From: a virus
DNA: 64,000 bases
IMG/VR virus record: IMGVR_UViG_3300036820_000013
Span: 1-64,000 of that record
Reading direction: 5' to 3' (one strand)
The notes beneath the pieces were generated by a model. The model had not been told where the DNA came from. It searched no databases and saw only the letters and a list, made by a program, of their open reading frames with translations. Of this stretch, positions 1-40,517 are shown one piece after another. The translations under genes were made by a program, and so were the position numbers. How positions within the stretch are numbered: position 1 is the stretch's first letter; the number at the start of each line of letters is the position of its first letter.

Positions 1-8
1 AATCAGTA

Positions 9-118
9 GTACAGTAACAAGTAGAATTACTGTACGAAATTATACGGACACAGAAGTGGCAGTGAACCTTCAAGGTTGTACACCGAAAGGTGTACTTCCT
101 TGTGGAGTCAGTCCACAA
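9..118 (+). promoter_or_regulatory. Multi-hairpin leader before the first gene
   Basis: Three perfect hairpins stand in a row: 9-17 with 27-35 (GTACAGTAA stem), 78-84 with 89-95 (GTACACC stem closed by a GAAA tetraloop) and 100-106 with 112-118 (TTGTGGA stem). They end 27 bases before the first start codon, ahead of an AAGGA ribosome site at 133-137. No protein fits this stretch. I infer a structured 5' leader of the same general kind as the other intergenic hairpin groups in this arm; its function is unknown. Confidence 0.45.
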
Positions 119-144
119 TCAGGTTCGAAGAGAAGGATGACACC

Positions 145-402
145 ATGAAGTCACAGTACAGTGCCGCAGCGATCATCAAGACGTTCGCGGACATCGAAGA
201 GGATGACATGCACTTCCTGAACAATGACGGAACGGTAGACAGGAAGGCCATGGCAGATATGGGCGTCTACCTAGTACGCCTGTCGATGGTCACGGAAGAG
301 GCAGTGCAGCAGGTGCTCGACATGATCGACGCGCCGAGCCTCGAGAAGGCGAACGACCAGGCGTTCGGCCTGATGAACGCCCTGATCAACAGGCAGTACT
401 AG
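145..402 (+). CDS. Hypothetical small acidic protein (85 aa)
   Basis: I do not recognise the family. It is an 85-residue helical-looking acidic protein (starts MKSQYSAAAIIKTF) without cysteines, signal peptide or membrane segment. The ATG at 145 is chosen because AAGGA (133-137) lies 7 bases upstream, whereas the longer in-frame reading begins inside the leader hairpins. It is the first gene in the window and lies downstream of a three-hairpin leader. Confidence 0.7.
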   Translation: MKSQYSAAAIIKTFADIEEDDMHFLNNDGTVDRKAMADMGVYLVRLSMVTEEAVQQVLDMIDAPSLEKANDQAFGLMNALINRQY

Positions 403-440
403 AAGGGAATGACAATGTTCGCAGTGTAGCCGCTGACGTT

Positions 441-497
441 CACGATGGTTGATCGATCGCCCAGTTCGGTCAACTGTCGCGGATGCCAAGATGGCAT
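441..497 (+). promoter_or_regulatory. Tandem-hairpin leader, copy A
   Basis: Stem GTTGATCGA (448-456) pairs with TCGGTCAAC (466-474), one G-U pair, around the 9-base loop TCGCCCAGT. A second small hairpin ATGCC/GGCAT follows at about 483-497, then a purine-rich ribosome site and the ATG at 518. The stretch 441-484 is a diverged direct repeat of 1254-1297, with the loop CGCCCAGTT kept unchanged. Confidence 0.5.
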
Positions 498-517
498 GCG
501 GGAAAGGAAAGTCAGTG

Positions 518-805
518 ATGGAAGAGATTGTACGACATAGCCAGAAGGAATCGCCTGAGTGCAGTTGGTGCGGTGATTTCGAACCGCTCGTAGACAGTGA
601 CACGCAGAAGTTGTTCCCGGTGATTGTGCTTCCGGGGACGGACGGCAAGTTCGGGCAACTGGAGTACTTCCACGAGCCGTGTCATAACACGCTCATGAGG
701 TGTAAGAGAGTCACGGATGCTATCAAAGCTACAGGGTGGACACAGGCTGAGTTCCTAACTCATGTAGATGAGCTAGCCGATGAGATCGAGGAGAACAGCC
801 AATGA
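518..805 (+). CDS. Putative zinc-binding small protein (95 aa)
   Basis: Unrecognised 95-residue protein. Near the N-terminus it has CSWC, and further on HEPCH, which together would make a C-x2-C...H-x3-C/H zinc site. The remainder is polar, with an acidic C-terminal helix. The ATG at 518 follows GGAAAGGAAA (501-510); longer in-frame starts would lie inside the hairpin leader. An 11-codon reading frame (802-837) overlaps its stop as ATGA and carries the AGGAGG used by the next gene, so the two may be translationally coupled. Confidence 0.65.
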   Translation: MEEIVRHSQKESPECSWCGDFEPLVDSDTQKLFPVIVLPGTDGKFGQLEYFHEPCHNTLMRCKRVTDAIKATGWTQAEFLTHVDELADEIEENSQ

Positions 806-842
806 CCCTCATGGCGAACGCCGACAGGAGGTCTTAGCAGAG

Positions 843-1058
843 ATGGACTCAACGCGGACGATCCTCAACGACGGCAAGGCCGTAACGTTCGTGGACGTAG
901 ACGAGAGCATGATCACTGCGATCGTGTCGATCAACGACTCTGGCGTTCAGTCTCTAGAGTACCAACTCAAGTGCCGTCAGTGCGGTGCAGGCAATTGGGT
1001 AGCGGTCGGTACAGACTCTGGCGAGTACCGCTGCATGAAGTGCATGGAGTGGTTGTGA
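843..1058 (+). CDS. Small zinc-ribbon protein (71 aa)
   Basis: The 71-residue product has two CxxC pairs near its C-terminus (CRQC and CMKC, about 17 residues apart), the pattern of a small zinc ribbon. Function unknown; nucleic-acid or protein contact is possible. The ATG at 843 is preceded by AGGAGG (826-831). Its stop overlaps the start of the next gene as TGATG, which suggests coupled translation. Confidence 0.65.
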   Translation: MDSTRTILNDGKAVTFVDVDESMITAIVSINDSGVQSLEYQLKCRQCGAGNWVAVGTDSGEYRCMKCMEWL

Positions 1059-1243
1059 TGAACACGCAGTGGGCGGAATACGTCCTGAAGCTCGATCATC
1101 GCGTCACGCGCATAGCGCACTGTCATGCGTGCGGATGGATCGACGGAGACCCGTATGCATTCATCGATCCGAACGGTCATCCGATGCGGATCTGCAAGAT
1201 CACCGAGTACGGGTTGCGTCAGGCAGCCGCGGAGTTCAACTAG
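1058..1243 (+). CDS. Small CxxC protein (61 aa)
   Basis: A 61-residue protein with a single HCHACGW motif, which could bind zinc with flanking histidines. Unrecognised family. It starts on the ATG overlapping the stop of the zinc-ribbon gene before it, so it is very likely cotranslated. After it comes a hairpin and then a promoter-like box, which probably marks the end of this transcription unit. Confidence 0.6.
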   Translation: MNTQWAEYVLKLDHRVTRIAHCHACGWIDGDPYAFIDPNGHPMRICKITEYGLRQAAAEFN

Positions 1244-1253
1244 TCTGCAGGGC

Positions 1254-1297
1254 CACGATGGCTGATCGCACGCCCAGTTCGATCAACCGTCGCGGTC
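1254..1297 (+). promoter_or_regulatory. Hairpin element, copy B
   Basis: TGATCG (1263-1268) pairs with CGATCA (1280-1285) around the loop CACGCCCAGTT. Sequence and structure match copy A at 441-484 (shared CACGATGG, TGATCG, CGCCCAGTT and GTCGCGG blocks). It lies between a stop codon and a promoter-like box, so it could act at the 3' end of the upstream message or be read as a boundary element. Confidence 0.5.
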
Positions 1298-1308
1298 GCA
1301 CAGGTGCC

Positions 1309-1359
1309 TAAAGATCTGAAGGGAGGGGCTGGATTTCACAAGCGGCCCTGTTATATAAT
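1309..1359 (+). promoter_or_regulatory. Promoter-like box 1 (AAAGATCT...TATAAT)
   Basis: TAAAGATCT (1309-1317) is followed 44 bases on by an extended -10 type TATAAT (1354-1359) in an A/T-rich run. A TGGATTT block sits 23 bases upstream of the -10. The same arrangement recurs at six other intergenic positions in the + arm, always just upstream of a gene and mostly after a stop codon. It is probably a phage promoter family; the AAAGATCT block may be a regulator or -35-distal site. Confidence 0.65.
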
Positions 1360-1403
1360 AAAAATAAATGCGACAAAAAGATCCCAAAAGGAAGGAACCG
1401 GTC

Positions 1404-1778
1404 ATGACCATCAAGTTGCAGGTCGAAGTTCCGGATGCAGCATTCGACTGCATCGACGGAACCGACAACTACGAACTGGTAATCGGGCACGTTGGGTTCG
1501 AGCCGGTCGATGTTCAGCTCCTCGGCGAGCCGGTCAAGCGGGAGTTCACCTACGAGGACCGCAAGCGAGTCAAGGACGTGCTTGACTGCATCCTCGACGA
1601 GATGGGTGACAGTTACACCCTGCAGGCAATGTTCAAGCCATACGCCGAGATCGTCCAGCAGGCGTTGACGGACCAGCGGATCACCGAGTCGCTGGCCGAT
1701 AGCGGATACGTGGAAGTACGCGATGAGAGCGAAGACGCTCAAGCGAAGCTGAACGCGCTGCGGGACTACAACGCCTGA
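1404..1778 (+). CDS. Hypothetical protein (124 aa)
   Basis: Unrecognised 124-residue acidic protein, soluble-looking, with no cysteine cluster or membrane segment. The ATG at 1404 is used because AGGAAGGA lies just upstream; the in-frame ATG at 1368 would be almost at the expected transcription start of promoter-like box 1. It is the first gene of the unit driven by that box. Confidence 0.7.
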   Translation: MTIKLQVEVPDAAFDCIDGTDNYELVIGHVGFEPVDVQLLGEPVKREFTYEDRKRVKDVLDCILDEMGDSYTLQAMFKPYAEIVQQALTDQRITESLADSGYVEVRDESEDAQAKLNALRDYNA

Positions 1779-1790
1779 CCGATCACGGTT

Positions 1791-1852
1791 GCAGTCAATC
1801 GGAGGTTGACTGCTTCCGCGGACGATCAGTCCGTACGCCAGTAAGGTCTGGC
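1791..1852 (+). promoter_or_regulatory. Three-hairpin leader, copy C
   Basis: GCAGTCAA (1791-1798) pairs with TTGACTGC (1806-1813). A small GGAC/GTCC hairpin (1820-1832) and a GCCAG/CTGGC hairpin (1837-1852) follow, then TAGGAGG and the ATG at 1873. The order of one long hairpin, short hairpins and ribosome site repeats the layout of the other leaders with unrelated stem sequence. Confidence 0.45.
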
Positions 1853-1872
1853 AAGAGCGCCTAGGAGGCACC

Positions 1873-2181
1873 ATGAAAGACACTGCAGCAGAACTCAAGC
1901 CGGGCAAAGGCGCTCGCGTGCCGTTGACCGAGGGCGTCCTTGAGATGCTCGATAGGGCGGTCAAGGACATCCGCGATGTATGGGAGGCCGCCAGCACGCC
2001 TGAAGAGTTCTTCGAGAACCTGGCGGACGAGTGGGGCACGGGCGCGTCGAACGAGAAGTTCGGCAAGCGCACCTGGGCCGCCTTCGATGTCCGCGGCGAG
2101 GAATTTCGCGTCGCGGTCATACTGACCACCAAGAACGGCCAGCCCGCGCTCGGGCTCGACATTCGGACTTGGTGGTCATAG
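1873..2181 (+). CDS. Hypothetical protein (102 aa)
   Basis: Unrecognised 102-residue protein. The N-terminal half is helical and acidic; the C-terminal part (KRTWAAFDVRGEEFRVAVIL) looks like a beta hairpin. It has a strong ribosome site (TAGGAGGCACC) directly before the ATG. Hairpin groups flank it on both sides, which makes it a single-gene cassette. Confidence 0.7.
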   Translation: MKDTAAELKPGKGARVPLTEGVLEMLDRAVKDIRDVWEAASTPEEFFENLADEWGTGASNEKFGKRTWAAFDVRGEEFRVAVILTTKNGQPALGLDIRTWWS

Positions 2182-2192
2182 CACCTCCAGTG

Positions 2193-2228
2193 CGAATCGT
2201 ACAGGTGAGCGATCACCTGTGCGGTTCG
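2193..2228 (+). promoter_or_regulatory. Long bipartite hairpin leader, copy D
   Basis: CGAATCG (2193-2199) pairs with CGGTTCG (2222-2228) and, inside it, ACAGGTG (2201-2207) pairs with CACCTGT (2214-2220), leaving a six-base loop and one bulge on each side. The outer stem includes a G-U pair. It ends exactly at the ribosome site GGAAAGGAG of the gene at 2243, so it could limit access to that site. Confidence 0.5.
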
Positions 2229-2242
2229 GAAAGGAGCGTCCA

Positions 2243-2497
2243 ATGAACGACAGCGAACGCAAGCACATCATCAAGATGTGCTGGCTGACAATCGTTTCGA
2301 CCGAGCCACGTTGCACGATCGACGATGGTAAGCACAATCCGAGCTGGCTGCACGAAGGCGACCAGTACTGGTACTACGACTTCCAGGACAGTGCACTGAT
2401 CTTGGAGGGCCTGGTGGTTCCGCTCACGACGAGATGGATCCTCTGTCCCAAGCACACCTATCTGGCGCAGGAAACAGCGGCCACAGAAGACCGCTAA
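2243..2497 (+). CDS. Hypothetical protein (84 aa)
   Basis: Unrecognised 84-residue protein rich in Trp and Tyr (DQYWYYDF) with scattered cysteines (CW, RC, CPKH). No signal peptide or clear membrane span. The ATG at 2243 follows GGAAAGGAG. Its stop sits directly at promoter-like box 2. Confidence 0.65.
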   Translation: MNDSERKHIIKMCWLTIVSTEPRCTIDDGKHNPSWLHEGDQYWYYDFQDSALILEGLVVPLTTRWILCPKHTYLAQETAATEDR

Positions 2498-2546
2498 AAG
2501 ATCTTGGTTCGCGGGCTGGTTTTTCCCAGCGGACCTGGATTATAAT
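2497..2546 (+). promoter_or_regulatory. Promoter-like box 2
   Basis: AAAAGATCT (2497-2505), then GCTGG/CCAGC as a short dyad around a T run, then TATAATTAA with the TATAAT at 2541-2546. GGTTTT lies 23 bases upstream of the -10. It matches the other boxes in order and spacing and drives the abundant-looking protein gene at 2600. Confidence 0.65.
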
Positions 2547-2599
2547 TAAGTATAACAAAAAAAAAAAAACCACCAAGTCCACAAAGGAAAGGCAAGACA

Positions 2600-3130
2600 A
2601 TGACCGCACGTACCCGGACCAGAAGGTCGACCAATCAGAGTCAGGAGACCGAAATGAACGAGCAGCAGACCGAGCTCGAGACCGTCCTCACCGAGGCGAT
2701 TGAGCAGCAGACCGAGCCGACCGAGGCCGAGCCGGCCAAGGCCGAGCCCAACTTCGTCATGACGCCGTACCAGGCAACCAAGCGGGTCAACGAGGCCCTG
2801 CAGGAGGCCGGGATCGACAAGACCGTTAGGTCGCCGATGATCTACATCTACGCCGGCAAGGGGGCCTTCGAGACGCACGAGACCGTCAAGGTGACCAAGA
2901 AGGGCACCGAGCAGGTCGTCAAGGAGATCGATGAGGAGTCGTTCCTCGCGTGGATGGCGAATTACGTCAAGGGTGCGGCCGAGCGGGCAACCGCCAAGGT
3001 CGAGCAGGTCGATGTCGCCGAGGGCGAAGAGGCCAGCGGCGTTACGACCGACGAGACCGCCAGCGACGAGTTCGTCGGGGTCGACGTCGAGGCACGTCAG
3101 GCCGAGATCGAGGCCTCCGAGGCTGAGTAA
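2600..3130 (+). CDS. Acidic putative DNA-binding protein, paralogue 1 (176 aa)
   Basis: Unrecognised by name. Residues about 1-50 are low-complexity and Glu/Thr/Gln-rich; about 53-130 form a folded domain (TPYQATKRVNEALQEAGIDK... then SFLAWMANY) that resembles a winged-helix; the tail is again acidic. The gene at 12670 has the same plan and a similar central domain, and both sit straight after a promoter-like box, so they look like paralogues made early or in quantity. The ATG at 2600 has AAAGGAAAGG upstream; the ATG at 2654 with CAGGAGA is an alternative start. Confidence 0.75.
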   Translation: MTARTRTRRSTNQSQETEMNEQQTELETVLTEAIEQQTEPTEAEPAKAEPNFVMTPYQATKRVNEALQEAGIDKTVRSPMIYIYAGKGAFETHETVKVTKKGTEQVVKEIDEESFLAWMANYVKGAAERATAKVEQVDVAEGEEASGVTTDETASDEFVGVDVEARQAEIEASEAE

Positions 3131-3141
3131 GTGACGACGGT

Positions 3142-3191
3142 CTGACAGCGAGCCGTCCAGCCTCGCTGTCAGGCCGCCGACACTTAGTCGG
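3142..3191 (+). promoter_or_regulatory. Tandem-hairpin leader, copy E
   Basis: A perfect 11-bp stem, CTGACAGCGAG (3142-3152) with CTCGCTGTCAG (3162-3172), closes the loop CCGTCCAGC. A second hairpin CCGAC/GTCGG (3177-3191) follows and runs into GGAAGGAGGG. Copy F at 4822 has the same second hairpin and ribosome site almost base for base, and a first stem with different sequence but the same 9-base loop pattern. That is compensatory change and supports an RNA role. Confidence 0.65.
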
Positions 3192-3202
3192 AAGGAGGGA
3201 AC

Positions 3203-4369
3203 ATGACAGCAGACAACCTAGACCTAGCCGAGCCGATGGCGCAGATCGAGACCGCTTTTGCAAGGAAGCCAGATAGGCGCAGCCAGCTAGACAGGGAGCT
3301 AACGAATGCGCGCAAGTACGTATTCGCGAGATACGCTCCAGCGCTAACGTTCAGCGAGCAAGTAACGCTGACGCTAGCAGCGGCAGGCACGCACGTGGTA
3401 GACACCGAAGACAAGAACTGCTTCGGTATCTATCCGCGCGTAGGCATCCTGAGCGACGAGCCGGGAAGCGGCAAGTCAACGATCCTGACACTGCTGTGCC
3501 ACTTGTCATACCGAGGCGAGAAGCTCTACACCAGGAGCACGACAGCCCCAGGCATGCTAAGGGCGCTGCAGGAGGATCGCAGGGTACTATGCCTGGACCA
3601 ACTCGAATACATCCTGAGCCATTCAGGACGCAGCTTCCTAGACCGGATCGACATCATCGAATCGGGCTACGAGCGGCAAGGCTGTTCGAGGAACGCTTCA
3701 GGCAGGCACGAGACATTCGCGCCTGTGTTCTTCGCTTGCCTCCAAGCAATGTTTAGGGGCAATCCGAACCTGGAAGCGATGCGCTCACGCACCATTCAGA
3801 TTCACACCGATCCCCTGCCAGATGGGATGCTTGCAGAAGAAGACCTGTACAGCGACCTGTCGGACGCACGAGCGATCAAGATGTTCGGAGAGCGATTGCA
3901 TATCGCGATCACGAACGCGCGAGAGGCGATCCTCACTAGCGAGCTCAGGCCGGTTGCAGGTCTGAAGCTGCGCATGAGCGAGAAGTGGGGACCACTGCGG
4001 CAAGTGGCGGCAGCGGCTGGAGGGCAATGGCCCGAATGGGTCGATGCCGCAGCCCGTGAGGTCTCGCTAGGGACGGAGACAGAGACGACCGCAGGAGGCC
4101 TCGGACTGTTCGAGGAGGACGCGATCGCATCCATCCGAGAGTTCCTAGAAGAGTCGGCCACCGACAACCTGGGGAGGCCGGAGCTCCTACGCCGCATAGG
4201 CGAGCGGACGCCCGCTTGGTATACGCCGAGGCAGGGAGCCGATTACCTAAACGGCATCATGGAGAACTACGGCATGCCGGAAGCGACTTCGGTGCATATC
4301 GCGAGCCTCGATCAAGCACGCCCAGGATGGAAGCACTCAGACCTCGAAGCAGTGTTCAGTGAGAACTAG
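3203..4369 (+). CDS. P-loop ATPase, DUF3631-like (388 aa)
   Basis: Walker A DEPGSGKST is at residues about 85-93 and a Walker B-like LCLDQLE at about 129-135. A later block with MRSRTIQI (arginine, likely sensor or finger) and a C-terminal helical region with QWPEWV resemble the DUF3631 ATPase domain seen in actinobacterial mobile and primase-associated proteins. It probably couples ATP hydrolysis to DNA transactions. The ATG at 3203 follows GGAAGGAGGG of the copy E leader. Family placement is by motif and remains tentative. Confidence 0.75.
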   Translation: MTADNLDLAEPMAQIETAFARKPDRRSQLDRELTNARKYVFARYAPALTFSEQVTLTLAAAGTHVVDTEDKNCFGIYPRVGILSDEPGSGKSTILTLLCHLSYRGEKLYTRSTTAPGMLRALQEDRRVLCLDQLEYILSHSGRSFLDRIDIIESGYERQGCSRNASGRHETFAPVFFACLQAMFRGNPNLEAMRSRTIQIHTDPLPDGMLAEEDLYSDLSDARAIKMFGERLHIAITNAREAILTSELRPVAGLKLRMSEKWGPLRQVAAAAGGQWPEWVDAAAREVSLGTETETTAGGLGLFEEDAIASIREFLEESATDNLGRPELLRRIGERTPAWYTPRQGADYLNGIMENYGMPEATSVHIASLDQARPGWKHSDLEAVFSEN

Positions 4370-4436
4370 ATTCTCGCGGGACACTCTCGCTCTCGCCGGA
4401 TCGCTTTCCAAAACAAATCAAGCAGGGAGGCGCGAG

Positions 4437-4496
4437 GTGAGTACGTACCTATTCTACAGCCCCTTCTCTAGAGCGTACAAGATCGAAAGGAGGTGA
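4437..4496 (+). CDS. Possible 19-codon upstream peptide
   Basis: A GTG start at 4437 with GGGAGG 6-7 bases upstream opens a 19-codon frame (MSTYLFYSPFSRAYKIERR). Its last codons and stop overlap the AAAGGAGG used by the next gene. The arrangement suggests translational coupling or a short regulatory peptide. It is too short to judge by composition. Confidence 0.35.
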   Translation: MSTYLFYSPFSRAYKIERR

Positions 4497-4501
4497 GAAA
4501 A

Positions 4502-4816
4502 GTGGGACTGCTACGCATGATGATCTACAATAGCGCACGACAGCGCCGCGCTAACTGGTCAGGAAGGCCGATCGCAGCTCAGGAGCGTGATCGGAAGCGG
4601 AAAGCAGCTGAGCGGACGCTGTCAGCTGCAGACAGTCGTCGACTGCACAACGTCATGCGTGCAGAGGGACGGATCAGGAAGCCGGACTACTACTACGGCA
4701 TGAACGAGTACGACGGTTGGCGGTGCCCGCACCAGCATCGGCACAAGATGCGAGCGCGGGTCTGCATCAGTCGCGAACGGCGCCTACGCAGGCGCGAGGC
4801 CAGAGTGAGTGCATGA
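4502..4816 (+). CDS. Basic, possibly zinc-binding protein (104 aa)
   Basis: Very Arg-rich 104-residue protein. Near the C-terminus CPHQHRHKMRARVC gives a C...H-H...C arrangement that could bind zinc; the charge suggests nucleic-acid binding. Unrecognised family. GTG at 4502 is chosen since AAAGGAGG (4486-4493) is 8 bases upstream; GTG 4493 would lie inside that site and ATG 4517 is another possibility. Confidence 0.6.
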   Translation: MGLLRMMIYNSARQRRANWSGRPIAAQERDRKRKAAERTLSAADSRRLHNVMRAEGRIRKPDYYYGMNEYDGWRCPHQHRHKMRARVCISRERRLRRREARVSA

Positions 4817-4821
4817 CAGTC

Positions 4822-4869
4822 GGGTAGCGGACGCCCAGCCCGCTACCCAGGCTGCCGACACTCAGTCGG
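4822..4869 (+). promoter_or_regulatory. Tandem-hairpin leader, copy F
   Basis: GGGTAGCGG (4822-4830) pairs with CCGCTACCC (4840-4848) around the loop ACGCCCAGC. The second hairpin CCGAC/GTCGG (4855-4869) and the following GGAAGGAGG match copy E at 3177-3199. The first stem shares no sequence with copy E, but stem length class, 9-base loop and loop motif (CG[CT]CCAGC) are kept. Confidence 0.65.
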
Positions 4870-4880
4870 AAGGAGGAGTA

Positions 4881-5204
4881 ATGAACGGCAAATACTACTC
4901 ACAGGTCCTACGAGGACAGTTGTCGGAAGACGACAACATGGCAGTTGTGCTGACAGTCAAGGACTGGCAGGCGATCGCCGAGAACCTGCACGAGGACGCC
5001 GATGCAGAGGGCTACGGCCCCGCGCAGAGCTACTTCATCGAGCGCGGGGAAGTCACCAGTATGGCCGACGTGCCCATTCTGGACTACCAGAACGCGTATG
5101 ACAAGGACGCTCAGGACTGCGCCGCGCATAGCTGTGCAGCCGCGACCGATCGCTGCGCCGACGTGATCGATGAGACCTTGAAGCAGAATGGCTGGTCAGG
5201 CTAG
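4881..5204 (+). CDS. Hypothetical protein (107 aa)
   Basis: Unrecognised 107-residue acidic soluble protein. The cysteines cluster at the C-terminus (DCAAHSCAAATDRCADV), perhaps a metal site. ATG at 4881 with GGAAGGAGG upstream, directly after the copy F leader. A longer GTG-started frame would run through the hairpins and is not favoured. Confidence 0.65.
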   Translation: MNGKYYSQVLRGQLSEDDNMAVVLTVKDWQAIAENLHEDADAEGYGPAQSYFIERGEVTSMADVPILDYQNAYDKDAQDCAAHSCAAATDRCADVIDETLKQNGWSG

Positions 5205-5205
5205 C

Positions 5206-5607
5206 ATGGCCCGCGTAATCGTGCTCTCGTTCGAAGATAACGAGTCCGCAGAGATGTTCGCGAAGGCGTTGCTTCGGGAAGGGCCTACGGCCGGTAGGCC
5301 GTTCGTGCCGCCTAGTGCGAAGATCGAAGCAATGATCGCGCGCCCAACGGCCGGATGCAGGGGACCGCACAGGATCCCAGGCAAGATCAAGTCCGAGCAT
5401 GGCTTCAGTCGAACCAAGCGGTTTGGTTGGTTCGTCTGCGGCCAGTGTAAAAAGCCAGCGCAAGCGGTCGTAGACCGTTTCATCGAGAACATGTTGGGCG
5501 GGTCGAACGACCTGCTGCCAGAAGTACTTGGCAGCGAGCCTAAGCAGCCTCGATGGCTAGCAGGCAAGGCACTCGTCGAAGTGCAGACACAACTAGGAAG
5601 AAGGTAG
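5206..5607 (+). CDS. Hypothetical CxxC protein (133 aa)
   Basis: Unrecognised 133-residue protein. The N-terminal strand MARVIVLSFED and helix resemble the start of a small alpha/beta or ferredoxin-like domain; residues about 83-86 carry CGQC and an earlier single C-R-G-P-H may complete a metal site. It begins one base after the preceding stop, so it is probably coupled; ATG 5188 is an in-frame alternative that would overlap. Confidence 0.6.
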   Translation: MARVIVLSFEDNESAEMFAKALLREGPTAGRPFVPPSAKIEAMIARPTAGCRGPHRIPGKIKSEHGFSRTKRFGWFVCGQCKKPAQAVVDRFIENMLGGSNDLLPEVLGSEPKQPRWLAGKALVEVQTQLGRR

Positions 5608-5612
5608 CCAAT

Positions 5613-6065
5613 ATGGATGCTGACGAGAAGCGTGAGCTCCTGAGCTTCGCGGAATATGAAGTTCACGACTTCATCGCGGAGCACAACGATCGCGTCGACA
5701 AGTGGGACTCCGACGCTGAGTATCGCGAGCAGGCGCGGGCCATAGGCCTCAAGCGCGGCGAGAAGTGGGATCCCAAGGCGGAGGTGTACCCCCAGAAGCC
5801 GAGCTACACGTTCCAAGAGTTCGCAGGGCCAGTCTTCGAGCTCGGCGGCTACGGTGACATGACGCTCATCGATCCATACTCGCAGCGACGTCTCTGGGTC
5901 AGCCAGTCAACCATCGGCGACCTCAGCGCGTACGACGCCATGATCCTAGTCCTGAAGATCGCGCAGGCGATCGACTTTCTAGACGACCGAGAGGAGGAAG
6001 ACCATGGCGCGGCAGACACAAGTTCAACGTCCGCAGCCGAAGCCCCAGCCGACAACTCCGACTGA
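5613..6065 (+). CDS. Hypothetical acidic protein (150 aa)
   Basis: Unrecognised 150-residue protein with an acidic helical N-terminus, an aromatic-rich middle (PSYTFQEFAGPVFELGGYGD) and a low-complexity Ser/Ala/Asp tail. The ATG at 5613 follows AAGAAGG. The 3' end encodes GAGGAGG, which serves as the ribosome site of a small out-of-frame gene starting at 6004. Confidence 0.65.
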   Translation: MDADEKRELLSFAEYEVHDFIAEHNDRVDKWDSDAEYREQARAIGLKRGEKWDPKAEVYPQKPSYTFQEFAGPVFELGGYGDMTLIDPYSQRRLWVSQSTIGDLSAYDAMILVLKIAQAIDFLDDREEEDHGAADTSSTSAAEAPADNSD

Positions 6066-6114
6066 CGCCCCGACTACCAACAAGCGCATAGCAAGGCTCT
6101 GGTTCGGCCAGTAG
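6004..6114 (+). CDS. Proline-rich miniprotein (36 aa), overlapping
   Basis: A 36-codon frame starts at ATG 6004, eight bases after GAGGAGG, and overlaps the 3' end of the gene before it in another frame. The product is Pro/Thr/Gln-rich with a basic end (KRIARLWFGQ). The strong ribosome site and extension past the upstream stop support it; no family is recognised. Confidence 0.5.
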   Translation: MARQTQVQRPQPKPQPTTPTDAPTTNKRIARLWFGQ

Positions 6115-6124
6115 CGCCGGCAGA

Positions 6125-6176
6125 CAATGCGTGATCGATGCCCAGTCGATCGCGCGTTGCGTGCTTACGTTAGCAC
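6125..6176 (+). promoter_or_regulatory. Tandem-hairpin leader, copy G
   Basis: A 14-bp stem, CAATGCGTGATCGA (6125-6138) with TCGATCGCGCGTTG (6146-6159), includes two G-U pairs and closes the loop TGCCCAG. A second hairpin GTGCT/AGCAC (6161-6176) precedes AGAAAGGAATAAGG and the ATG at 6198. Retained G-U pairs in a long stem favour selection on RNA rather than a DNA palindrome. Confidence 0.6.
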
Positions 6177-6197
6177 GGCCCAGAAAGGAATAAGGCA

Positions 6198-6716
6198 ATG
6201 ACACAGACGCCAATCCAGCAGTACCCAAGCGTCACGCCTCCGCCGGCCGGCAAGAAGCGCCGTTGGCCGAAGTTTGTCGCGATCGGTGCTACCGCTCTCG
6301 TCGCAGGCGCGATCGGAGCGTCGATCGGTACCGCAAGCAACAAAACGCCGACGGTCAGCCCAAAGGCGACAGTTAGTGCTCCGGCCAAGGTAGCGCCCGC
6401 CAAGCCTGCGGCGTTCAAGCCAGTTACCTTGCTGGAGGACACCGGCACCGGGACCGAAGTCACTCCATCATTCGTCAGCCAGAGCGGCGACTACAAGGTG
6501 GTCTGGATCTTCTCGGACAACAGCGACCAGTACGGCAACGCTTCCAACTTCATCATGACTGAGGACGGTGGCAGCGACCTCAACGCTATGACGCTGCCTA
6601 ACGACATCCAGTCCGCTGGAACCGGTAGCACCGAGATCACTGACGATCCCGGCACGCACACGTTCGACGTGCAGGCTCTGGGCACCTGGCAGGTAGTGGT
6701 AGTGTCAGCACCGTAG
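6198..6716 (+). CDS. Membrane-anchored surface protein (172 aa)
   Basis: A Pro/Lys-rich cytoplasmic start (KKRRWPK) is followed by one hydrophobic span (about residues 25-47, VAIGATALVAGAIGASIGTA), a Pro/Ala/Lys linker and an outward domain (about 75-172) of beta-sandwich look. Topology suggests a host-envelope protein made by the phage, for instance in superinfection exclusion or envelope change; that role is inference. It has its own hairpin leader and downstream hairpin, so it is a single-gene cassette. Confidence 0.65.
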   Translation: MTQTPIQQYPSVTPPPAGKKRRWPKFVAIGATALVAGAIGASIGTASNKTPTVSPKATVSAPAKVAPAKPAAFKPVTLLEDTGTGTEVTPSFVSQSGDYKVVWIFSDNSDQYGNASNFIMTEDGGSDLNAMTLPNDIQSAGTGSTEITDDPGTHTFDVQALGTWQVVVVSAP

Positions 6717-6730
6717 CGCCGGTAGGCCTT

Positions 6731-6770
6731 AGGCGATCAGCACTGATCGCCTTTGGCGTGCTTACGCACG
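6731..6770 (+). promoter_or_regulatory. Tandem hairpin, copy H
   Basis: AGGCGATC (6731-6738) pairs with GATCGCCT (6745-6752), and CGTGC (6757-6761) with GCACG (6766-6770) around TTAC. AAGGAATC follows, but no gene starts here; promoter-like box 3 comes next. The second hairpin and its GTGCTTACG sequence echo copy G. It may be the 3' end of the previous unit. Confidence 0.45.
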
Positions 6771-6780
6771 AAGGAATCTA

Positions 6781-6830
6781 AAAGATCTGGGAGGTGACTC
6801 TTGGCTTTCCCACTCGCCCTGATATATAAT
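6781..6830 (+). promoter_or_regulatory. Promoter-like box 3
   Basis: AAAGATCT (6781-6788) and TATAAT (6825-6830, extended as TATATAATTAATTAA) are 44 bases apart, with TGGCTTTCCC in between (GGCTTT 22 bases upstream of the -10). Same layout as boxes 1, 2 and 4. The next start codon, of a leader-type peptide, is 23 bases after the -10. Confidence 0.65.
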
Positions 6831-6852
6831 TAATTAATGGAGGAGAGCAGCT

Positions 6853-6948
6853 ATGGACGTTGAAACCCAGGCCGGAGATTGGTCCCCCCACCGCTCCGGC
6901 CTGGTTTTGAGCGCCCAAGCTCAAGCAAAGAAACGGAGCACACAATGA
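6853..6948 (+). CDS. Leader-type peptide (31 aa)
   Basis: GGAGGAG (6839-6845) precedes an ATG at 6853 that opens a 31-codon frame ending in ATGA overlap with the gene at 6945. The frame contains a strong stem-loop with a T run (6867-6908). Promoter, ribosome site, short peptide, internal terminator-like hairpin and coupled downstream gene together resemble an attenuation leader. The signal, if any, is not apparent. Confidence 0.5.
   Translation: MDVETQAGDWSPHRSGLVLSAQAQAKKRSTQ
6867..6908 (+). terminator. Terminator-like hairpin within leader peptide
   Basis: CCAGGCCGGA (6867-6876) pairs perfectly with TCCGGCCTGG (6895-6904), an 18-base loop, and TTTT follows (6905-6908). This is the most intrinsic-terminator-like hairpin in the arm. 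It lies inside the 31-codon frame between box 3 and the gene at 6945, so translation of the leader could decide whether it forms. Confidence 0.5.
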
Positions 6949-7214
6949 CTGCAACAGACAGGCCCAGCACCCATCTCGGCAACGGAATGGGTAGGACCAT
7001 GCGAGCGGCGGCATGGTCGTTCGACTTCGCCTTGCCCCTGATGGCGATCAAGCTGTACCAGCTCATTCCGAGCAGCACCCGCGGGCGGCTGTTCGGCGGA
7101 CCGAGCGCGTCGGTCGACGCCGCGCGGCAGATCAAGCTGCAGGGCGGAGGGGCTTGGCAGCTCATCCGCAGCATCGCGATCAGCAACCACCCCGACCGGC
7201 CGAGCATGCCATGA
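6945..7214 (+). CDS. Hypothetical protein (89 aa)
   Basis: Unrecognised 89-residue basic protein with a mildly hydrophobic middle (AAAWSFDFALPLMAIKLYQL) that may be membrane-associated. The ATG at 6945 overlaps the leader peptide stop and the next gene starts within its own last codons (ATGA at 7211), so it sits in a coupled series. Confidence 0.6.
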   Translation: MTATDRPSTHLGNGMGRTMRAAAWSFDFALPLMAIKLYQLIPSSTRGRLFGGPSASVDAARQIKLQGGGAWQLIRSIAISNHPDRPSMP

Positions 7215-7609
7215 GCCACGACTATCATGAGGGGTTGCCGAACTTCAGCCCTCATCAGCTATTCCATGATGGCTGCGATGAATGTGAGCAGCGCGCTAGC
7301 CATCAGTACGCCTTCGCCAAGGTCGACTTGAAGGCTGCTTGGCTACGAGCGTACCGTTGGGAGAAGCGCCAGCTGAGCGAAGCTGAGCAGCCAATCAGTA
7401 TAGCGGAGGCTCCGCACCTGCGCATGATTTGGACCATTCAGGTCCTGCTCGAGCGCGACGGCGTGCCGCTCGGAGTGTATCCAGGCGACCTCGCGACGAT
7501 CATTCGGCGTGAGCTTTCGCCAGGTGCGCTGATGCAAGCCGCAGCTGCGCCTCTCGACGCACTACTAGCAGACGCCATCAAGCTCCTAGCAGACCCCACC
7601 GAGCCCTAA
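7211..7609 (+). CDS. Hypothetical protein (132 aa)
   Basis: Unrecognised 132-residue helical protein. An early DGCDECEQ motif may bind metal; the rest has no family signature that I can place. Starts by ATGA overlap with the gene at 6945. A typical ribosome site separates it from the next gene. Confidence 0.65.
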   Translation: MSHDYHEGLPNFSPHQLFHDGCDECEQRASHQYAFAKVDLKAAWLRAYRWEKRQLSEAEQPISIAEAPHLRMIWTIQVLLERDGVPLGVYPGDLATIIRRELSPGALMQAAAAPLDALLADAIKLLADPTEP

Positions 7610-7627
7610 CGAGAAAGGGACTAGTCA

Positions 7628-8020
7628 ATGGTTAGCGAGACCAGAGTAGCGAACAAGGCGTTCATCGGACACCGCAAGGCGTTCAACAACCTGCGGAGCG
7701 CGGACCAGCGCAGCATCGTCGCCGCCTATCGGTACGGGCAGATCGTCGATGCCCTTCACTCCAGTGGCTACTCGTACGAGGACTTGGGCGAGGACGTCGA
7801 TCGCTCGAAGTACACCGTCGCCCTGTACGCAGCACTGTACAACAAGTACCCAGACGAGCATGCTCTGCTCCACACCGCCGAGGCCATGCGGACCTACAAC
7901 GTAGCGACCCTGGCTGGCAGGAATCCAGCTCGTCCGATCGAGTACGTGTTCCACTGCTCGAGCTGCGGCAGCTTCGATATCGTGAAAGAGCGCAAGGAAG
8001 ACGAGCCCGTCTACTCTTAG
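7628..8020 (+). CDS. Putative HTH protein with CxxC (130 aa)
   Basis: Residues about 25-75 (RSIVAAYRYGQIVDALHSSG then YEDLGEDVDRSKYTV) read as a helix-turn-helix-like unit; the C-terminal part has FHCSSCGSFD, a half zinc knuckle. Likely a small DNA-binding regulator, but this is inference from pattern only. ATG at 7628 follows GAGAAAGGGA. Confidence 0.6.
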   Translation: MVSETRVANKAFIGHRKAFNNLRSADQRSIVAAYRYGQIVDALHSSGYSYEDLGEDVDRSKYTVALYAALYNKYPDEHALLHTAEAMRTYNVATLAGRNPARPIEYVFHCSSCGSFDIVKERKEDEPVYS

Positions 8021-12542: not shown

Positions 12543-12593
12543 AAAAGATCTTCCCAGGCACGCTGGACCCTCGCTTGCGTATCGGGATATAAT
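12543..12593 (+). promoter_or_regulatory. Promoter-like box 4
   Basis: AAAAGATCT (12543-12551) and TATAAT of GATATAATTAAG (12588-12593) stand at the same 44-base spacing as box 1; CTGGACCC lies 23-24 bases before the -10. Drives the paralogue of the gene behind box 2. Confidence 0.65.
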
Positions 12594-37953: not shown

Positions 37954-40517
37954 GGCCCGATCCTTTCGAAGATTGCCGCCTGCCCGACTATCGTACAAGT
38001 GCCTGCGACAGCGGCAGTGATGGACATAGTGGTTGACGCGGTCGTGTTAACGCTGATCGCTGTGCTACTCACGCCCATTACAGTAGAAGGTGTGGCTCCC
38101 GACGTACCGGAAGCCTCACCGATATGGACGACCGTTGTGTACCACGCCGTACCGCTGCTACCAATCGTCTCGACGGTAATCAGCGCCACCGCATACCAGG
38201 TGAACACGCTAGGGAGCGAAGCGGCTGCCGCCTCAGCCTCCGTGTTCCCGTACGCCAAAGTGTTCCAGTTCAGGTTGCTTGAGCTGTACGAGCCGGTACC
38301 GAACGCCGTAATGCGGTATGTGGTACCTGGCGCAGCGTCGTTCGCCGGAATGGAGAACGACGGAGTAACCGCGGTCTGAGAGCCGGTACTGGCCGAGTGC
38401 GAAGCCGGGACCGCGCCTATCGTGTTCGTGAGTTGCCCATTGAATCCATTAGCACTCTTGAAAGCGGCATTTCCGTCCGCGTCTGCATAAAAAAGCGCAT
38501 ACTGATTAGCAGGCGTACCAGACTGCGTAACCATTTCCAGGCCGCCGCCGCCAGCTGAGCCTGTTCCCAGTACTAGGTTCCCAGCCGTACTAGCCGCTAG
38601 CGTTGTATACTTCGTATTGCTATTATACAGCCCAAGGCCAGCTGGATAGGTGTTGCTATACCCATCCGTTCCTGAGACCGGCGAAACGCTGACTACTAGA
38701 TTAGACGTAGCCGGAGTTCCGCTGTAGGCTAGGAACTCACCCGACGAGCCGTCGACAACAATACTCGTACCGGTAATCGTGCCAGCCTGGATCACGGCGC
38801 TCACTAGCGTCGCTGTCTCAATTGTCGTGCTATTGACAATTCCAGCAACGACTATGTCCGCGACCAGATTGCTAGCTGCGATTGTGCCAGCCGCGATCAA
38901 CGAACCCGTAATCGTGCTAGCAGCAATCAGATCTGCAGTAATAGTAGCGGCTGCGATTTCCGTAGCGGTAATCGTGCCCGCCGCGATCAACGAGCCTGTA
39001 ATGGTACTCGCAGCGATCTGCGAGGCAGTGATCGTATTGGCTGCGATGTTACTAGCTACGATCGTACCAGCAGCGATCTGCACAGCAGTAATAGCACCGG
39101 CTGCGATCTGCGTAGCCGTGATCGTATTAGCTACGATGTTAGCGGCAGTAATCGTCCCCGCCGCAATCAAGCTGCCAGTGATTGTAGCAGCCTCAATTAG
39201 GCTGCCAGTAATCGTGCCTGCAGCGATCTGCGCGGCAGTAATTGTGTTGGCCGCAATTTGACTAGCAGTGACCGCTCCTGCTGCAATCAGCGATGTCGTG
39301 ATCGCTTGCGCCTCGATCAAGCCGCTCGTGATAGTCCCGGCGGTGATCACATCGCTGGCTGTAAAGCTAACAGCCGTCCAAGCTGAGCCGCTGTACTGCT
39401 GCAGCTGGTAGCCGTTAGCCGAGTCGATCCAGATATCGCCTGCGATCGGGCTGCCTGGAGCCGAGCCTGCGATCGTTGTTGTTATCCCGCCGAGGGTCCG
39501 AGCAGTCACCGAACCTGACAGAAGCGATGCAGTAACTGATCCTGCCGTTAGAACGTCAGAGGCCGTAAACGAAACCGCTACCCAAGCAGATCCGGAATAT
39601 TGATTGATCTGATAGCCGCTAGCTGAGTTGATCCAGATATCTCCAGCAACAGGTGAACCTGGAGCAGAGCCTGCAATCGTAGTAGTAATGCCGCCTAGAC
39701 TACGAGCTGTAATGCTGCCGCTCAGCAACGTAGCGCCCACGGAACCTGCCGCGAGGACATCAGCTGCGTTCCAGCTAATAGCCGTCCAGGCAGATCCGGA
39801 ATACTGTTCTAGCTGGAAGCCTGACGAGCTGTTAACCCATAGGTCGCCTGCCGCCGGCGAGCCTGGCGCAGACGATGCAATCGTCGTCGTAATACCGCCA
39901 AGCGCCCTAGCCGTAACCGCGCTGTTCAATGCTGCCAGACCAACAGCAGCACTAGCTATAGCTGCTGACCCAACAGCGTCATCCGCTATCTGAGCCGCTC
40001 CGACAGCTCCATCAATCAGCTGCGGCTGGCCGACAGCATCATCAGCCAGCTGGGACTGCCCTACGGAAGCATCAATTAGTTGTGCAGTCCCAACAGCATT
40101 ATCAGACAGCAAGGCTTGAATGATCGAGTTGTCCGCAATTGCGCTCGTGCCGTACTGATAGACAACCCATTCGGAAGTACCTTCATCGTACACTTCCATA
40201 ACGGCTGTGCCGCTGCTCGTATTGAACCAGAACTCTCCGCCGGTCGGATCAGACGGCTCAGTCGGCCCAAGGACTACAGTTGTACCGTTAGCACCTACGA
40301 TGGTAATGTCAGAAGTTAGCTCACCCGTGCCGTCAGCGTTTAGGACAAACCCTGACGTCCCCGGTACATAGTTAGACGAGCCTAGCGCGGTCCGGTTCAG
40401 TGTAGTGCCTAGTGCCACTGGGTCAGTAGCCAATACCTCAAGATTAGTAATGCGTCGACTGAGACTAGCAATCGTGCTAACAAGCCGTTGCTCGATAGTT
40501 ATCGGACGCCCAGTCAA
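37950..40517 (-). CDS. Repeat-rich tail fibre-like protein (855 aa)
   Basis: Plan: a coiled-coil start (IASLSRRITNLE), a beta domain, alternating VGTAQLIDASVGQ-type short repeats, three tandem 68-residue repeats (LGGITTTIA.SAPGSP.AGD.W...QYSGSAW), about 18 ten-residue repeats (ITASQIAAGT type, 38.83-39.33 kb on the map) probably forming a beta-helix, and a C-terminal globular domain of about 250 residues that would be the receptor-binding part. TTG 40517 overlaps the preceding stop by four bases; ATG 40586 is an alternative with 73 bases overlap. Confidence 0.75.
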   Translation of the reverse strand: MTGRPITIEQRLVSTIASLSRRITNLEVLATDPVALGTTLNRTALGSSNYVPGTSGFVLNADGTGELTSDITIVGANGTTVVLGPTEPSDPTGGEFWFNTSSGTAVMEVYDEGTSEWVVYQYGTSAIADNSIIQALLSDNAVGTAQLIDASVGQSQLADDAVGQPQLIDGAVGAAQIADDAVGSAAIASAAVGLAALNSAVTARALGGITTTIASSAPGSPAAGDLWVNSSSGFQLEQYSGSAWTAISWNAADVLAAGSVGATLLSGSITARSLGGITTTIAGSAPGSPVAGDIWINSASGYQINQYSGSAWVAVSFTASDVLTAGSVTASLLSGSVTARTLGGITTTIAGSAPGSPIAGDIWIDSANGYQLQQYSGSAWTAVSFTASDVITAGTITSGLIEAQAITTSLIAAGAVTASQIAANTITAAQIAAGTITGSLIEAATITGSLIAAGTITAANIVANTITATQIAAGAITAVQIAAGTIVASNIAANTITASQIAASTITGSLIAAGTITATEIAAATITADLIAASTITGSLIAAGTIAASNLVADIVVAGIVNSTTIETATLVSAVIQAGTITGTSIVVDGSSGEFLAYSGTPATSNLVVSVSPVSGTDGYSNTYPAGLGLYNSNTKYTTLAASTAGNLVLGTGSAGGGGLEMVTQSGTPANQYALFYADADGNAAFKSANGFNGQLTNTIGAVPASHSASTGSQTAVTPSFSIPANDAAPGTTYRITAFGTGSYSSSNLNWNTLAYGNTEAEAAAASLPSVFTWYAVALITVETIGSSGTAWYTTVVHIGEASGTSGATPSTVMGVSSTAISVNTTASTTMSITAAVAGTCTIVGQAAIFERIGP

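Follow-up and report, generated by a model that had tools for sequence, protein, structure and literature searches.

Repeated elements near translation starts have been described in the cluster K mycobacteriophages, where they are known as SAS and ESAS; they have ~17 bp inverted repeats, about half of them are extended, and they are conserved per gene family with a function that is unknown (PMC3203893). Here we analyze a set of hairpins with a shared loop core, YCCAG, that precede early genes in positions 1-64000 (the window, 64,000 nucleotides) of a 79,080-base IMG/VR virus record (IMGVR_UViG_3300036820_000013, hereafter G000). ESAS are the nearest described phenomenon that we found, being likewise repeated elements 5′ of many phage genes beside translation starts, but their pattern is the opposite one: ESAS arms have a consensus and the 4-13 bp spacer varies (PMC3203893), whereas the window hairpins hold a constant loop core on arms that differ. 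The window hairpins fall outside ESAS, since their arms differ among copies and the 13-bp SAS GGGATAGGAGCCC is not found before window gene starts. CsrA and RsmE offer another comparison, with GGA-loop hairpins present in several copies in 5′ leaders and read by one protein. The window leaders share with them a short loop motif on free stems but not membership, the motif being YCCAG rather than ANGGA and not overlapping the Shine-Dalgarno (SD) sequence, and no CsrA-like gene was recognized among the 10 early proteins scanned. Lambdoid boxB/nut sites, phage coat operators and RegA-type operators are phage sites on RNA, many of them hairpins with a loop that a phage protein recognizes; the loop sequence is lineage-specific there as it is here, but here five or six copies are spread across the early region, most of them directly 5′ of ribosome sites. 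In T7, irregular long hairpins between early genes serve as RNase III sites, and long irregular hairpins lie between early genes in the window as well; the T7 sites have, to our knowledge, no conserved loop, in which they would differ from the window leaders.

We propose, with a probability of about 0.55, that these hairpins form a family of structured leader RNAs, so far confined to one phage lineage, whose YCCAG loop would be read by one trans-acting factor. Such a factor is suggested because the loop core is fixed, the stems are free, the hairpins are restricted to the coding strand and the early region, and they are retained at orthologous sites. The first 8 kb of the window consists of small + strand genes and is called early from its position and content. 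The five hairpins that the original prediction had claimed are all present, all in this region and all on the coding (+) strand: hairpin 1 at 443-479 (14 bp, loop TCGCCCAGT at 457-465), hairpin 2 at 1257-1291 (13 bp including one C-A mismatch, loop ACGCCCAGT at 1270-1278), hairpin 3 at 3138-3176 (15 bp, loop CCGTCCAGC at 3153-3161), hairpin 4 at 4822-4848 (9 bp, loop ACGCCCAGC at 4831-4839) and hairpin 5 at 6125-6159 (13-15 bp, loop ATGCCCAGT at 6138-6146). Aligned on the loop, all five read N-Y-G-Y-C-C-A-G-Y. Their stems (P2) had been described as long, perfect and unrelated in sequence; they are long but contain several G-U pairs, and CGATGGYTGATCG is common to the stems of hairpins 1 and 2, with TGATCG of hairpin 5 found in both of these too. 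Since hairpins 1 and 2 share a stem and hairpins 3 and 4 share the second hairpin and ribosome site that follow, the window copies amount to about three stem families rather than five independent cases. These shared parts are what recent duplication alone would leave, one ancestral hairpin having been copied and the loops being alike by descent without selection. That account is improbable in our view, as the stems have drifted apart without losing their pairing and the loop core has stayed the same, and the core is carried by several unrelated stem families.

The motif is far more frequent in these hairpins than chance provides, and the possibility that it is equally common in random hairpins does not survive controls of three kinds, by strand, permuted motif and Markov sequence. 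Strong hairpins with a 9-nt loop number 10 on the + strand of the window, 5 of which carry NYGYCCAGN (NYGYCCAGY in all five), and 14 on the – strand, where the motif occurs in none; its background on the + strand is 33 occurrences in 64,000 positions. Five reversed or permuted motifs gave 1-3 hairpin matches each, as against 9 for the real motif over all loci then compared, and a first-order Markov control of the first 8 kb gave a mean of 0.01 motif hairpins against 4 observed at the same threshold. In two relatives of the window phage the loop 5-mers were ranked by enrichment: CCCAG comes first in the G012 genome (6 seen, 0.46 expected), and GCCCA and CCCAG are the top two in G010 (5 against about 0.4 expected); the loop 5-mers of the relatives G001 and G013 show no such CCCAG enrichment. 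A GCGAAG loop proper to G013 was considered and dropped, as the listing of its leaders gave no consistent loop.

Three close relatives, G010, G011 and G012, were chosen by DNA-polymerase homology and hence independently of the loop motif; their polymerases are 71-75% identical to that of the window phage, as compared with 50% for G001 and 48% for G028. A covariance model built from the five window hairpins alone found the element in G010, G011 and G012, with E values of 1.6e-4 for G012 and 3.4e-4 for G010 and other matches as weak as 0.04. Reading the leaders by eye and by script gave five YCCAG hairpins in the early region of G010 and six in that of G012, with loops that include AGCCCAGAA/AACCCAGAA, T-GCCCAG-A, TCGCCCAGC, ACGCCCAG/AATCCCAGA and ACGCCCAGC. 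Because AACCCAGAA and AATCCCAGA occur in these relatives, the core that is fixed across them is YCCAG only, with loop length (6-10 nt) and register both varying. The motif is thus not confined to the window phage, and two of its sites are orthologous between window and relatives. Hairpin 2, 5′ of gene 1404, occupies the same site as G010:3036 and G012:74302, the G010 ortholog of gene 1404 standing after the hairpin at 3036. Hairpin 3, after gene 2600, has its counterparts at G010:8399 and G012:69051; their core reads CCCAG in place of the window's UCCAG, and their upper stem differs completely. Between G010 and G012, the 5-nt core is unchanged at five orthologous sites at which about four other loop letters have changed. 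Of 46 stretches that matched a TCACGATGG..GTCGCGGA scaffold pattern, only those of G010 and G012 had strong hairpins, and more distant relatives do not have the YCCAG loop.

The original prediction also held that the loop is kept while the stem is free to vary yet always paired, and this is strongly supported, including in relatives that were found without the motif. Pairing holds in 93% of the stem cells of the window hairpins, against 27-42% in a slid control, and double changes are seen at 11 of 12 pairs, although these copies were picked as hairpins, so that the figure is in part a product of selection and proves little by itself. In 14 orthologous leaders compared between G010 and G012, 24 of 27 changed P2 pairs still pair, through 9 double and 15 one-sided changes. 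One-sided changes that leave a pair require G-U, so the conservation of P2 supports an RNA rather than a DNA structure. A loop sequence that is fixed on a stem that varies with its pairing kept is what characterizes an operator bound through its loop, and the leader hairpins show this pattern. Stem covariation alone would fit hairpins that serve intercistronic processing or stabilize 5′ ends, as RNase III-type sites or decay barriers do; function would then lie in the stems, and the loop would be a leftover of duplication that is merely tolerated. Such a role gains from the leaders as a whole: a long imperfect hairpin stands near the ribosome site in nearly all early leaders of G000, G010 and G012 and in many of those of G013 (a strong one in most leaders of the first three and in many of G013), and many of these are free of the motif. 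It gains as well from the hammerhead ribozymes described below, which in G001 and G028 lie near early gene starts, where self-cleavage would cut the mRNA. What it leaves unexplained is the recurrence of the same 5 nt in unrelated stems and the constancy of the loop core at the five G010/G012 orthologous sites, and we regard it as unlikely, though less so than the other alternatives.

A common loop-binding protein or RNA, as originally suggested, is the most economical reading of these data, although the scan of early proteins described below yielded no partner. A protein would be the likelier of the two, since the fixed part of the loop is 5 nt long and shifts in register, which would be enough for a protein and few for base pairing. 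An RNA partner would have to carry CUGGR and pair with the loop, by kissing with a small RNA of phage or host or by pairing with rRNA. The Y positions of the window loops would be compatible with G-C or G-U pairing to a fixed partner, and hairpin 2 has a loop exactly complementary to ACUGGGCGU, a conserved sequence in 16S rRNA. That part of 16S rRNA is buried in the 30S core, which counts against pairing with it, and a 1.5-kb rRNA is long enough that matches of 7 nt with wobble are likely to arise by chance. With only 5 nt kept in the relatives (as in AACCCAGAA and AATCCCAGA), few for specific pairing, and with the enrichment of CTGGG loops probably being the antisense of the same hairpins, loop-RNA pairing seems rather improbable.

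Downstream of the loop hairpin, a second hairpin (P3) and a ribosome site follow in four of the five leaders, as had been noted, the exception being that at 1257-1291, which has no ribosome site. All of the following lie on the + strand. In leader 1, P3 at 483-497 (ATGCCA-AGA-TGGCAT, from sequence and predicted fold) is followed by GGGAAAGGAAAG and the gene start at 518. Leader 3 has CCGAC-ACTTA-GTCGG at 3177-3191, the SD AAGGAGG at 3192-3198 and the gene start at 3203, and leader 4 has CCGAC-ACTCA-GTCGG at 4855-4869, its SD at 4870-4876 and the gene start at 4881. The near-identity reported for these two copies is borne out by the shared CCGACACTYAGTCGGAAGGAGG at 3177 and 4855; an exact pattern for the shared P3 and SD matched no viral contig beyond the window's own record. 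In leader 5, P3 at 6160-6177 (CGTGCT-TACGTT-AGCACG) precedes the SD AAAGGA at about 6184-6189 and the gene start at 6198. The SD regions of the window leaders read AAGGAGG, GGGAAAGG and AGAAAGGA. The hairpins do not have the make-up of intrinsic terminators: 3′ of each lies a second hairpin with an SD or a promoter-like site, and no T run was read after any of the five. An Rfam scan of the window at gathering score gave no match to the leaders; two Rfam miRNA matches at 3125-3190 were set aside as chance matches to a long hairpin.

In many leaders the P3 loop is complementary to a region at or near the stop codon of the upstream gene, with the combinations UAAGU/ACUUA, UGAGU/ACUCA, UGAAC/GUUCA and UGAUC/GAUCA as examples. 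When the loop was compared with its own upstream region in 26 leaders, 0 of 20,000 permutations reached the observed complementarity, and the outcome was the same when only the 15 G000 and G010 leaders were used. In leader 3, the + strand segment 3125-3133 (GAGTAAGTG), which includes the upstream gene's stop codon, can pair with 3181-3189, and in leader 4 the + strand segment 4803-4811 (GAGTGAGTG) can, from sequence and predicted fold, pair with CACTCAGTC at 4859-4867; in both leaders the fold favoured by RNAfold is the long one, in which this stop-region pairing is formed. This complementarity, which would form a stop-codon helix (P1), we regard as real. P3 and P1 overlap in bases and must therefore be alternatives or parts of a pseudoknot, and the leader may switch between folds, a proposal drawn from the complementarity only. 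Early genes in these phages are preceded by a long P2, often with a short P3 just before the ribosome site, and in the model outlined here YCCAG would be the single-stranded recognition element for one trans-acting factor. By acting on several leaders, this factor would set translation or processing of the early mRNAs as a group, and terminating ribosomes could shift a leader between its two folds through the alternative pairing of the P3 loop with the upstream stop region.

More distant relatives have hammerhead ribozymes in the corresponding region. The early region of G001 (L009) contains, on the + strand between 1204 and 7640, nine complete type II hammerhead cores, none of them more than about 110 nt ahead of the start of an early gene; the best four reach E 1.9e-4 to 0.044 in Rfam, which is below the gathering score. 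On the – strand of G028 (L277), two type II hammerheads at 8143-8083 and 3280-3217 score 44.3 and 39.3 bits, above the Rfam gathering score of 37, and a pattern scan (core CUGANGA / GAAA / UH with stems I and III closed and stem II open; RF02276) found several near early gene starts. The gene 3′ of hairpin 3, at 3203, has its G001 ortholog at 6400, downstream of a hammerhead at 6324. Type II hammerheads are an established class, with clustered examples of tested activity among them (PMC3088659). The G001 and G028 copies hold the same place before early genes as the window leaders, which have no hammerhead core (RF02276); the sole match of G000 to the hammerhead pattern, at 38678, is far from the leaders. 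This supports, without proving, the view that the region just 5′ of early genes is a place of mRNA processing or control in this group. The window leaders could themselves be a new class of self-cleaving ribozyme that replaces these hammerheads, given that their placement and direction with respect to early genes are comparable and that they have a compact fold with a possible pseudoknot. We consider this very improbable: there is no conserved core outside the loop, the P3 stems and junctions vary freely, comparable motif-free leaders have hairpins tipped with UUCG or UACG, and no Rfam ribozyme matched window positions 1-8000 even at E 10. A broader conjecture, to which we give a low probability, is that the lineage swaps classes of RNA device before early genes, using either hammerhead arrays or a protein-read, two-state YCCAG leader that senses, by way of the stop codon, whether the upstream gene is translated; if true, both classes would split one early transcript into separately controlled messages. 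As separate observations, a relaxed type II hammerhead pattern matched at least 120 viral DNA stretches (L017, L072, L026, L030 and L048 being among the contigs), with 4-5 copies on some contigs, and of those rechecked L072 and L048 alone gave an Rfam match at E 0.05; G028 also has a tRNA at 1987-1919.

Several observations weigh against one factor reading the YCCAG loop. A Pfam scan of 10 early proteins gave no recognizable RNA-binding family, and no partner hairpin was seen. P2 shows YCCAG, in a loop of 6-10 nt, in a third to half of early leaders, which leaves about half or more without the motif, their tips being UUCG, UACG, GNRA-like or unrelated; motif-free leaders being this common, the leader must work without it. 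The ortholog of gene 1873 (near 5618 in G010) has a YCCAG loop in G010 and G012 and a GGA loop in the window, so the loop is not permanently tied to one gene. The stop-codon helix fares less well than P2, with 6 of 8 changed pairs broken and 2 kept between G010 and G012 (4 of the 6 in one leader), and its support is the weaker of the two. Paralogy is part of the reason why the window copies are alike, and the evidence comes from four related metagenomic contigs. The list of genes shared with G010 and G012 and absent from G001 and G013 contains too many small genes for a partner to be singled out.

Among the window leaders without the motif, all on the + strand, that at 1791-1813, 5′ of gene 1873, has the GGA loop followed by CGGAC-GATCA-GTCCG, and that at 6731-6752 is a strong hairpin in the same early region. 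The hairpin at 2193-2228 has a GCGA loop and a 5′ CCUCC that can pair with the SD GGAG; judging from sequence, an upstream (AU)CUCC could likewise pair with the SD in its counterparts G010:6981 and G012:8638. A promoter-like AAAGATCT..TATAAT lies at 1310-1359 (+ strand), directly 3′ of hairpin 2 and 5′ of gene 1404, and AAAGATCT-N-TATAAT occurs just after this and other hairpins in G000, G010 and G012. The window has AAAGATCT with TATAAT 36 bases later at 1310-1359, 2497-2546, 6781-6830 and 12544-12593; the element is found 0 times in shuffles and is present also in G001 and G010. By eye, the leader of the first gene (76-140) has the look of a three-way junction, with GAACCT/AGGTTC around GAAA- and GTCAG-loop hairpins. 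The gene 3′ of hairpin 3 (3203-4369) encodes a DUF3631 protein (Pfam) with a Walker-like GSGKST stretch; G001 has its ortholog, and G033, G028, G010, G011, G012 and G013 match it more weakly. Positions 2600-3130 encode a small protein of a family with a TPYQA..VN core that has one copy in the window and three in G001. Gene products of the window include a DNA polymerase, a helicase, an exonuclease, a minor tail protein and an annealing protein of the Sak4-like kind. No near relative of the phage was found among isolated phages, and its left end had no match to them in DNA-level and tblastn searches. Early genes led to one useful relative, G001, and polymerase alignment to many more. Apart from G001, the search with an early ATPase-like gene reached just two contigs, both very distant and lacking the element, the helicase gave one distant contig, and genome contigs gave distant matches only, mainly covering the first 190 residues of the polymerase.

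The leader-RNA family appears to be undescribed, having no match in Rfam and nothing alike in a limited literature search. It gives a tailed phage the signature of a post-transcriptional regulon and provides a ready set of covarying sites, and the rows of hammerheads before early genes in its relatives make a role of ribozymes in phage mRNA processing open to comparison between lineages.

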